This document shows, in pieces, positions 53,001-55,343 of a DNA stretch of 64,000 nt. The translations under genes were made by a program, and so were the position numbers. The notes beneath the pieces are model-generated. The model worked only from the letters and a program-made list of their open reading frames with translations, was not told the DNA's origin and did not search any database. The stretch spans positions 1 through 64,000 of the forward strand of contig JAFGDS010000009.1 in NCBI GenBank assembly GCA_016931995.1, read 5' to 3'. The stretch is from Pirellulales bacterium (GTDB lineage: Bacteria; Planctomycetota; Planctomycetia; Pirellulales; Thermoguttaceae). Position 1 is the first letter of the stretch. Each line of letters opens with the position of its first letter.

Positions 53001-55343
53001 ATGATCGCTCCACTCGTCCGTGCCGCGGTGGCCGCGGCCGTTTTCTCCGTTGGCGTCTCAGCGGACTCCCCGGGCATCGCCGCCATGCCCAAATTGCCCC
53101 AGGCGCCGCCGGCCTCCGTCGGCATGGACGCGGCCAAGCTCGCCGAAATCGACGCCGTCGTCGCCCAGGGCATCGCCGAGAAAAAGATGCCCGGCTGCGT
53201 GGTGGCCATCGGTCGGGGGGGCAAGCTCGTTTTCCTCAAGGCCTACGGCCACCGCCAGCTCGTGCCGCGCGAAGTGCCCATGACCGTGGACACGGTGTTC
53301 GACCTGGCCTCCGTGACCAAGCCCGTGGCCACGGCCACGAGCGTGATGGTGCTGGTCGATCAGGGCCGCGTCGGGCTCGACGATCCGGTGGCCAAGCATA
53401 TACCGGAATTCGCCCAGAACGGAAAGGACGGCGTCACCGTCCGTCATCTTCTGACGCATCAGGGCGGGCTCATCCCGGACAACGCGATGGCCGACTACCG
53501 CGACGGGCCGGCGAAGGCGTGGGAGCGGATCTTCGCTCTCAAGCCTCAGTCTCCCCCCGGCACGGAGTTCGTCTATACCGACGTCGGCTACCTCGTGCTG
53601 GGCGAACTGGTCCGGCGGGTGTCGGGCAAGGACGTGAACGTGTTCTCGCGGGAGCACGTCTTCGGGCCGCTGGGGATGGAAGAGACGATGTACCTGCCCG
53701 GGCCAAAGCTCGCCCGGCGGGCCGCGGTCACCGAGAAACGCGGCGATCGCTGGATGCGGGGCGAGGTGCACGATCCGCGGGCGTACGCCCTGGGCGGCGT
53801 GGCCGGACACGCGGGGCTCTTCTCCACGGCCACCGACCTGGCCGTCTACGCCCAGATGATGCTCGGCGAGGGCCAATACGCGGGCGTCCGCGTGCTCAAG
53901 CCCGAAACGGTAGCCACGATGACCGAACCCTACCTGGCCAGCGGCGATCTCCGGTCGCCGGGTTGGGACAAGCTGACGGGCTATTCGACCAACCGGGGCA
54001 AGACGTTTTCGCCCCGGGCGTTTGGCCACGGCGGATTCACGGGCACGGCGATCTGGATGGATCCGGAGTTGGACTTGTTCGTCATATTCCTCTCCAATCG
54101 GGTCCATCCCGACGGCAAGGGCTATGTCAATCCGCTGGCCGGCCAGATCGGGACGATTGCCGCCGACGCGATCACCGGCCCGGTCCATCCGAAGCCGCCT
54201 GCCGTCCCGCGGGTGATGACCGGCATCGACGTCTTGCGCCGCGACGACTTCGCCAGGCTCGCCGGCCGGCGCGTCGGGCTCATCACCAACCAGACGGGTA
54301 TTGCCCGCGACGGCACATCCACGATCAAGCTGCTGGCCGGCGCGAAAAACCTCAAGCTCGTGGCCCTGTTCAGCCCGGAGCACGGGCTGGAGGGCAAGCT
54401 CGACGTGTCCGATATCCGTGACAGCCGCGACGAGCAATCCGGTCTGCACGTGTATAGTCTCTACGGAAAAGACAAAAAGCCGACGCCCGCGAGCCTCGAA
54501 GGCATCGACACGCTCGTGTTCGACATTCAGGACGTGGGCTGCCGTTTCTACACGTACATCTCGACGATGGGCCAGGCCATGGAGGCGGCGGCCGAGCGGA
54601 AGATCCGCTTCGTGGTGCTCGACCGGCCCAATCCGCTGGGCGGCCGGCGCGTGGCCGGGCCGATGCTGGATCCGGGGCGGGAGTCGTTTGTCGCGTTCCA
54701 CCGCCTGCCCCTCCAACACGGCATGACGGTGGGCGAGCTTGCGCGGCTGTTCGCCGCGGAGCGGAAGCTCGATCTGGACCTGCACGTGGTCGCCATGGAA
54801 GGCTGGCGGCGGGGTGACGATTTCGAGTCCACCGGCTTGCCCTGGGTCAATCCCTCGCCCAACATGCGAAGCCCCACCGAGGCGTTTCTCTATCCCGGCA
54901 TTGGGCTGTTTGAGACGACCAATCTTTCGGTGGGCCGCGGCACGCGGACGCCGTTTGAGCTGATCGGCGCCCCCTGGCTTGACGGCCGCCGCCTGGTTGC
55001 GGAGTTGGCCGGGGCGGCGCTTCCCGGCGTGCGATTCACCGCCGTGGCTTTCAAGCCGGACGCGAGCACCCACGCCGGGAAGATTTGCGGGGGGCTGGAG
55101 ATTACCGTGACCGACCGCACAGCGTTCGACTCCGTGCGGACGGGAATTCAAATCGCCCGGACCGTGCATCGTCTCTGGCCAAAGGACTGGAAGACGGAAG
55201 GGTACGACCGTCTTCTGTTGAGTCGCAAGACCTTCGAGGCGGTCTTGGCCGACAAGCCGCTTGAGGAGATCGAAGCCGCCTGGCAGCCGGAGATCGAGGC
55301 TTTCCTCGCCCGGCGGGCGAAGGTTTTGTTGTACAATGAATGA
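53001..55343 (+). CDS. Beta-lactamase-like serine hydrolase fused to NamZ-type exo-beta-N-acetylmuramidase (DUF1343)
   Basis: This 780-residue secreted protein has two domains. Residues about 45 to 390 are a class C beta-lactamase-like serine hydrolase with SVTK (Ser104, Lys107) and YTD (Tyr192). Residues about 405 to 775 are DUF1343/GH171 with GRRVGLITNQTG, ALFSPEHGLEG, FDIQDVGCRFYTYISTM, VVLDRPNPLGG and VNPSPNMRSPTEAFLYPGIGLFE. DUF1343 proteins such as NamZ remove terminal N-acetylmuramic acid from peptidoglycan. The fused hydrolase may cut the attached peptides, so one protein could recycle wall fragments. GAAGGG lies 7 bases before Met at 53001. Confidence 0.93.
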   Translation: MIAPLVRAAVAAAVFSVGVSADSPGIAAMPKLPQAPPASVGMDAAKLAEIDAVVAQGIAEKKMPGCVVAIGRGGKLVFLKAYGHRQLVPREVPMTVDTVFDLASVTKPVATATSVMVLVDQGRVGLDDPVAKHIPEFAQNGKDGVTVRHLLTHQGGLIPDNAMADYRDGPAKAWERIFALKPQSPPGTEFVYTDVGYLVLGELVRRVSGKDVNVFSREHVFGPLGMEETMYLPGPKLARRAAVTEKRGDRWMRGEVHDPRAYALGGVAGHAGLFSTATDLAVYAQMMLGEGQYAGVRVLKPETVATMTEPYLASGDLRSPGWDKLTGYSTNRGKTFSPRAFGHGGFTGTAIWMDPELDLFVIFLSNRVHPDGKGYVNPLAGQIGTIAADAITGPVHPKPPAVPRVMTGIDVLRRDDFARLAGRRVGLITNQTGIARDGTSTIKLLAGAKNLKLVALFSPEHGLEGKLDVSDIRDSRDEQSGLHVYSLYGKDKKPTPASLEGIDTLVFDIQDVGCRFYTYISTMGQAMEAAAERKIRFVVLDRPNPLGGRRVAGPMLDPGRESFVAFHRLPLQHGMTVGELARLFAAERKLDLDLHVVAMEGWRRGDDFESTGLPWVNPSPNMRSPTEAFLYPGIGLFETTNLSVGRGTRTPFELIGAPWLDGRRLVAELAGAALPGVRFTAVAFKPDASTHAGKICGGLEITVTDRTAFDSVRTGIQIARTVHRLWPKDWKTEGYDRLLLSRKTFEAVLADKPLEEIEAAWQPEIEAFLARRAKVLLYNE

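Follow-up and report, generated by a model that had tools for sequence, protein, structure and literature searches.

The gene at positions 53001 to 55343 on the forward strand of the window (the whole stretch of Pirellulales DNA that was analysed, 64,000 nucleotides) encodes, from ATG to stop, a 780-amino-acid protein in which an AmiE-type serine hydrolase is fused to a NamZ (GH171) exo-muramidase. Comparison with homologues and with gene neighbourhoods in relatives suggests that the fusion is probably a secreted bifunctional muropeptide enzyme, which would combine an AmiE-type amidase with a NamZ exo-beta-N-acetylmuramidase. Both enzymes and their shared operon in Bacillus are already known. 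The fused form was not found described in the open-licence papers searched, a set outside which the main AmiE and NamZ papers lie.

Domain layout, conservation and distribution of the fusion

The region 53001-55343 is a genuine two-domain fusion in one conserved frame. The original prediction had placed both domains in a single protein, and this is borne out by the Pfam domains, the conserved frame and independent end-to-end homologues. Pfam assigned residues 50-373 (53148-54119, +) to PF00144 (Beta-lactamase) with an E value of 4.6e-76, far above the cut-off. The NamZ_N catalytic domain (PF07075) followed at residues 425-624 (54273-54872, +; E 1.8e-83, 279.4 bits against a cut-off of 26.9), and the NamZ_C domain (PF20732) at residues 629-778 (54885-55334, +; E 1.5e-47, 162.6 bits against a cut-off of 25). 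The fusion was the sole NamZ_N match in the source genome (5.43 Mb, 99% complete). An N-terminal hydrophobic stretch starting at residue 9 (Kyte-Doolittle mean of 2.33 over 11 residues) suggests a signal peptide (53001-53063, +), with cleavage predicted near residue 21 from the AxA-like VSA. A similar stretch was present in 40 of the 41 fused homologues examined, and the protein is probably exported.

The reading frame was compared with those of near relatives. Against the closest one (L003, 70.5% amino acid identity), the three codon positions differed by 0.223, 0.170 and 0.503, respectively. With the second near relative (L004) included, the difference was about 0.5 at the third position and 0.17 to 0.26 at the first two. 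This excess at the third position indicates that both domains of the fusion are under coding constraint. The linker between them (about residues 396-404; 54186-54212, +) was poorly conserved in the comparison with near relatives. In an AlphaFold2 model built from 32 fusions (mean pLDDT 91.5, pTM 0.57), residues 399-403 had a pLDDT below 50. The model is confident within each domain and shows the linker as flexible, but it is not confident about how the domains are placed relative to each other. Substrate channelling between the domains is unsupported, as their relative placement is of low confidence.

End-to-end homologues with 52 to 70% identity were found in ten genomes (G027, G001, G010, G023, G033, G012, G028, G051, G042 and G020), and the fusion was present end to end, as one match or one frame, in 12 of 60 relatives, the source genome included. 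In a phylum sample of 294 genomes, 56 contained NamZ_N, and 23 of these had a serine hydrolase domain in the same frame; NamZ frames shorter than 700 amino acids that were not among the retrieved loci were counted as unfused with their DNA unread, and an 854-amino-acid frame (G113) that had no serine hydrolase match was also counted as unfused. When bacterial and archaeal genomes were scanned, one per species, 48 of the best 80 loci out of 591 were fused, with the serine hydrolase first; this proportion does not represent a natural frequency. Among the sources of the fused loci were Planctomycetes, Acidobacteria, Armatimonadota, Rokuibacteriota, Hydrogenedentota and Betaproteobacteria, and also Labilithrix (Myxococcota) and Akkermansiaceae (Verrucomicrobiota). 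Plasmids of Burkholderia and Cupriavidus carried the fusion at about 40% identity. The question raised at the outset, whether the fusion is widespread in planctomycetes, is answered in part by these counts: it recurs in planctomycetes but is not specific to them, since other groups carry it, among them Acidobacteria, Betaproteobacteria, Armatimonadota, Verrucomicrobiota and Myxococcota. A common annotation artefact, which the original prediction had named as its refuter, and an assembly artefact are both ruled out by the conservation of the joined frame across many independently assembled genomes. Public annotation lists the fused proteins only under the names 'serine hydrolase' and 'NamZ domain-containing protein'.

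In the betaproteobacterial loci L062, L064, L071, L023 and L024, the fusion comes after a polysaccharide deacetylase and, in most of them, after a putative glycoside hydrolase of the DUF4015 family as well. At L032, L034, L076, L079 and L081, and also in G083, G113, G164, G178, G223 and G260, the first NamZ is followed in tandem or nearby by another one, often more divergent, which perhaps has a second substrate specificity.

Identity of the serine hydrolase and NamZ domains

Fifty-one chosen serine hydrolase domains were compared: fusions, stand-alone relatives, AmiE proteins of Bacilli operons, YfeW, proteins adjacent to MurQ or NagZ, and six outgroups (AmpC, AmpH and four paralogues from the source genome). 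The motifs DxASx[TS]K, Y[ST]D, VHD...GHAG, GHxGxTGT and [ST]NRxHP recurred in the groups other than the outgroups, apart from isolated deviations in a few rows, such as YSC instead of YSD in the Halorussus row. The last three of these motifs were absent from all six outgroups, whose tyrosine motif was YxN in five and YSG in one. The fusion carries the SxxK, Y[ST]D, VHD..GHAG and GHxGxTGT set of the AmiE-type clade. Its SxxK motif, S104-V-T-K107 (53310-53321, +), contains the expected nucleophile Ser104, and two alignments, one of 13 and one of 32 fused proteins, showed no variation at S104 or K107. In the 32 fused rows, Y192 was invariant and D194 nearly so; Y192-T-D194 (53574-53582, +) stands at the position of the YxN of class C beta-lactamases, which the fusion lacks. 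The clade-specific motif GEVHDPRAYALGGVAGHAGLFS (residues 254-275; 53760-53825, +) was found in AmiE, YfeW and the fusions and was absent from AmpC, AmpH and the four paralogues. H343-G-G345 (54027-54035, +) begins the H[G/T]GxTGT motif, with H343 and G345 invariant in the same 32 rows.

In the tree of the 51 domains, the 45 rows of fusions, Bacilli AmiE, YfeW and proteins adjacent to MurQ, NagZ or NamZ were split from the six outgroups by a 99/99 branch with a length of 0.96, although the long rows (YfeW, Halorussus, Deinococcus, AmpC and AmpH) were placed with lower certainty. Inside the clade, most fusions formed a part of their own and were not nested within Bacilli AmiE. The domain matched many class C beta-lactamase models of NCBIfam weakly, all far below cut-off (NF033085, 63.1 bits against an equivalog cut-off of 415). 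Judged by its motifs and tree position, the domain belongs with the AmiE/YfeW clade and is class C beta-lactamase-like in fold only. The original label 'class C beta-lactamase-like' thus holds for the fold but not for the family. Membership in this clade makes the MurNAc-L-Ala amide bond the expected site of cleavage, and therefore nitrocefin would be an uninformative substrate.

For the NamZ half, E460, H461 and G462 were invariant in the 32 fused rows, and the glutamate of the P459-E460-H461-G462 motif (54375-54386, +) is a candidate catalytic residue. The identity to the operon NamZ of Cytobacillus gottheilii was 46% over 381 positions. In the structural comparison with Foldseek and VIA-align, two solved DUF1343 structures of Bacteroides fragilis matched this half: 4k05 with a Z score of 50.1 and an rmsd of 2.0 over 373 residues (40% identity), and 4jja with a Z score of 39.4 and an rmsd of 1.9 over 338 residues. 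These NamZ proteins (YbbC, DUF1343, GH171) are stand-alone; the fusion contains a complete NamZ with an amidase-like domain ahead of it.

MurNAc genes in relatives and in the source genome

AmiE, NagZ and NamZ genes were contiguous in four Bacilli loci (L096, L101, L103 and L106), and NamZ and AmiE genes stood side by side in two further Bacillota loci (L109 and L110). The AmiE (YbbE) homologues of the four Bacilli loci share with the fusion PF00144, the SxxK, YSD, VHD..GHAG and GHxGxTGT motifs, and the linkage to NamZ; the comparison was made with these homologues (the Cytobacillus AmiE at 40% identity), leaving out the B. subtilis sequence itself. In Bacilli, AmiE is encoded by a gene of its own ahead of nagZ and namZ, and the Cytobacillus AmiE has a C-terminal extension, whereas in the source fusion the AmiE-type domain is joined directly to NamZ, without NagZ. 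The ybbC gene of the Bacillus operon is taken here to be namZ. Two Acidobacteria loci contained NagZ-AmiE fusions (L068, 2852-6061, -; L099, 2806-5757, -), which likewise join an AmiE-type domain to a muropeptide glycosidase, but with GH3 NagZ as the partner and ahead of AmiE. The one in L068 adjoins a serine hydrolase-NamZ fusion and the one in L099 a NamZ frame. Similar NagZ-AmiE fusions occur in Bacteroidetes.

Among the 37 fusion loci of at least 12 kb, MurQ was found within about 6 kb of the fusion in 15, and none of MurQ, NagZ, AnmK and MurP within that distance in 22. G033 has the fusion consecutive with MurQ and a BadF-type kinase on one strand. In G042 and G051, the fusion adjoins an SSF symporter, and MurQ, a BadF-type kinase and AnmK lie beyond it in divergent orientation. 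A symporter lies upstream of the fusion in G028. G044 has a stand-alone NamZ with a symporter-like ORF before it, and its MurQ is fused to the kinase. The symporters of G042 and G028 were assigned by Pfam, and those of G051 and G044 were judged from the ORF starts. In L154 (6505-8403, -), MurQ and a BadF-type sugar kinase share a single 633-amino-acid frame near a symporter-like ORF and NamZ. By the matches listed for the 60 relatives, 12 genomes had both NamZ and MurQ, none had MurQ alone, 7 had NamZ alone and 41 lacked both (Fisher p = 3.6e-8, with no correction for kinship).

Plasmids of Halorussus and Haladaptatus (L025, 3236-11227; L026, 527-8196) carry clustered genes for AnmK, an HAD hydrolase, an AmiE-like serine hydrolase, a protein of unknown function, NamZ and NagZ. 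Haloarchaea have, to our knowledge, no peptidoglycan, and the cluster is likely a kit for eating bacterial muropeptides. A search of open-licence papers on haloarchaea and peptidoglycan degradation returned nothing on this cluster.

The source genome itself differs in content. In a search of the whole genome, canonical MurQ was not found; the only match was a GKRP-like paralogue below cut-off (653 amino acids; contig C118, L146, 439-2397, -). Its role as a replacement for MurQ is unlikely, as it lacks the ASECPP stretch, whose glutamate is presumably catalytic in MurQ. Similar split MurQ matches were seen in G001, G015, G020, G029 and G031. A GH3 protein (NagZ) was likewise not found in the source genome, and its best BadF match was an acyl-CoA dehydratase activase. 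An AnmK-like protein was present. As for the AmgK-MurU route, an alternative use of MurNAc, the source genome showed no APH gene next to an NTP_transferase gene, barring a pair about 1.3 kb apart on contig C125, where the APH match is marginal; both families are broad. Within the window, no gene for MurQ, NagZ, AnmK or MurP was found beside the fusion gene and no local operon was seen; the neighbours were a BBP7-like porin (with PF07585 scoring below cut-off), one ORF that no Pfam family matched, and genes for a tRNA-dihydrouridine synthase, an EF-G-like protein and a SecDF-like protein. The ORF list of the window also contains a 2,038-amino-acid ORF (44288-50404, +) with repeated Ig/cadherin-like units.

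The premise that planctomycetes lack normal peptidoglycan is outdated: peptidoglycan is present in this group according to PMC4432640, and the source genome encodes a transpeptidase-domain protein. For the source organism, the further suggestion of a dedicated recycler is unproven, given that searches of its genome yielded neither canonical MurQ nor GH3 NagZ. A fitting BadF kinase was not found in this genome either, and the fusion may have a role in wall remodelling or debris stripping there.

Proposed function and alternatives

After its predicted export, the protein would meet soluble wall fragments. By analogy with AmiE, Ser104 would attack the amide that links L-Ala to the lactyl group of MurNAc, freeing the stem peptide, and NamZ, going by its family, would then remove the bared MurNAc at the non-reducing end. 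The tether, a short flexible linker, may keep both activities together at a fixed ratio. In relatives, the neighbourhoods suggest that MurNAc would enter by a symporter and pass to a kinase and then to MurQ. The bond specificity, the order of the cuts, the export and the uptake of free MurNAc as the product are all inferred. According to PMC5061867, the AmiE of B. subtilis acts as a MurNAc-L-Ala amidase, and its gene lies in the operon murQ-murR-murP-amiE-nagZ-ybbC. The sequential trimming of peptide and sugar that was originally proposed is the best reading, and the neighbourhoods in relatives strengthen it.

With YfeW in the same clade, homology alone does not settle which bond is cut. YfeW, which has no NamZ domain, is named PBP4B, and weak DD-carboxypeptidase activity has been reported for it. 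The first domain could be a DD-carboxypeptidase or DD-endopeptidase of this kind, which would trim stem peptides and leave other enzymes to bare the termini for NamZ. PBP4B/YfeW was the best NCBIfam match (NF002968), and YfeW shares the clade motifs and is encoded after murQ-murP in E. coli, in a MurNAc catabolism operon. However, the score of 174.2 bits is far under the equivalog cut-off of 385, and the identity to the operon AmiE of C. gottheilii (40% over 394 positions) is higher than that to E. coli YfeW (30%). The recurrent pairing with NamZ, MurQ and NagZ also fits peptide removal better than DD-carboxypeptidase trimming, since NamZ requires peptide-free MurNAc, and the YfeW-like activity is considered unlikely. 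A generic family VIII esterase or a beta-lactamase, with a natural substrate other than peptidoglycan, is suggested by the fold of the serine hydrolase half, which in Foldseek and VIA-align matched the family VIII carboxylesterase EstG (4ivi), other esterases and class C beta-lactamases with Z scores of 34 to 42, and by the weak matches to class C models noted above. The VIA-align rows mostly span residues 35-394 and include no solved AmiE, the NamZ part resting on 4k05 and 4jja, and the fold by itself cannot tell an amidase from an esterase. The separation from AmpC, AmpH and the four paralogues by motifs and tree, the YTD in place of YxN, the linkage to MurNAc genes and the model scores far below cut-off argue against such an enzyme; it was rejected on motifs, tree and model cut-offs and seems highly improbable.

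A further alternative is an autolysin or wall-remodelling enzyme that acts on the cell's own intact sacculus and not on soluble fragments. It would be consistent with the probable export, the transpeptidase-domain protein and the source genome without MurQ or GH3 NagZ for catabolism. Nevertheless, an exo-acting muramidase would find few ends in a sacculus, sugar catabolism genes lie beside the fusion in relatives, and B. subtilis AmiE, which is placed under PF00144, did not hydrolyse intact peptidoglycan according to PMC10653849. Action on the intact sacculus is therefore thought quite unlikely, and the preferred reading is the secreted amidase-muramidase acting on soluble muropeptides.

For Pirellulales-like planctomycetes, we tentatively suggest that this amidase-muramidase is the exported front end of a complete route of MurNAc scavenging without a PTS or AmpG, and that source-like species keep only the exported enzyme. 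Following the fusion, a sodium:solute symporter would import MurNAc, and a BadF-type MurNAc kinase, MurQ and AnmK would act on it; the genes for this set lie together in G042 and G051 and in part in G033, G028 and G044. Source-like species might use another entry route or be strippers of the wall debris of other bacteria. The symporter, BadF-type kinase and MurQ of G042 and G051 match in content the murTKQ genes of Tannerella forsythia, which encode a MurNAc transporter, kinase and etherase according to PMC10465942 and PMC7670621. This likeness concerns the functional set only, not kinship of the symporter with MurT, and G042 and G051 also have AnmK.

As its parts are known, the fusion may be a moderate surprise to the specialist. 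With it, a label that described only the fold ('beta-lactamase-like') gives way to a substrate that can be tested, namely the bond between MurNAc and L-Ala in muropeptides, and AmiE and NamZ are linked in the Rosetta-stone manner in several phyla. Together with the neighbourhoods in relatives, it suggests a whole planctomycete module for MurNAc scavenging, a candidate MurNAc symporter included.
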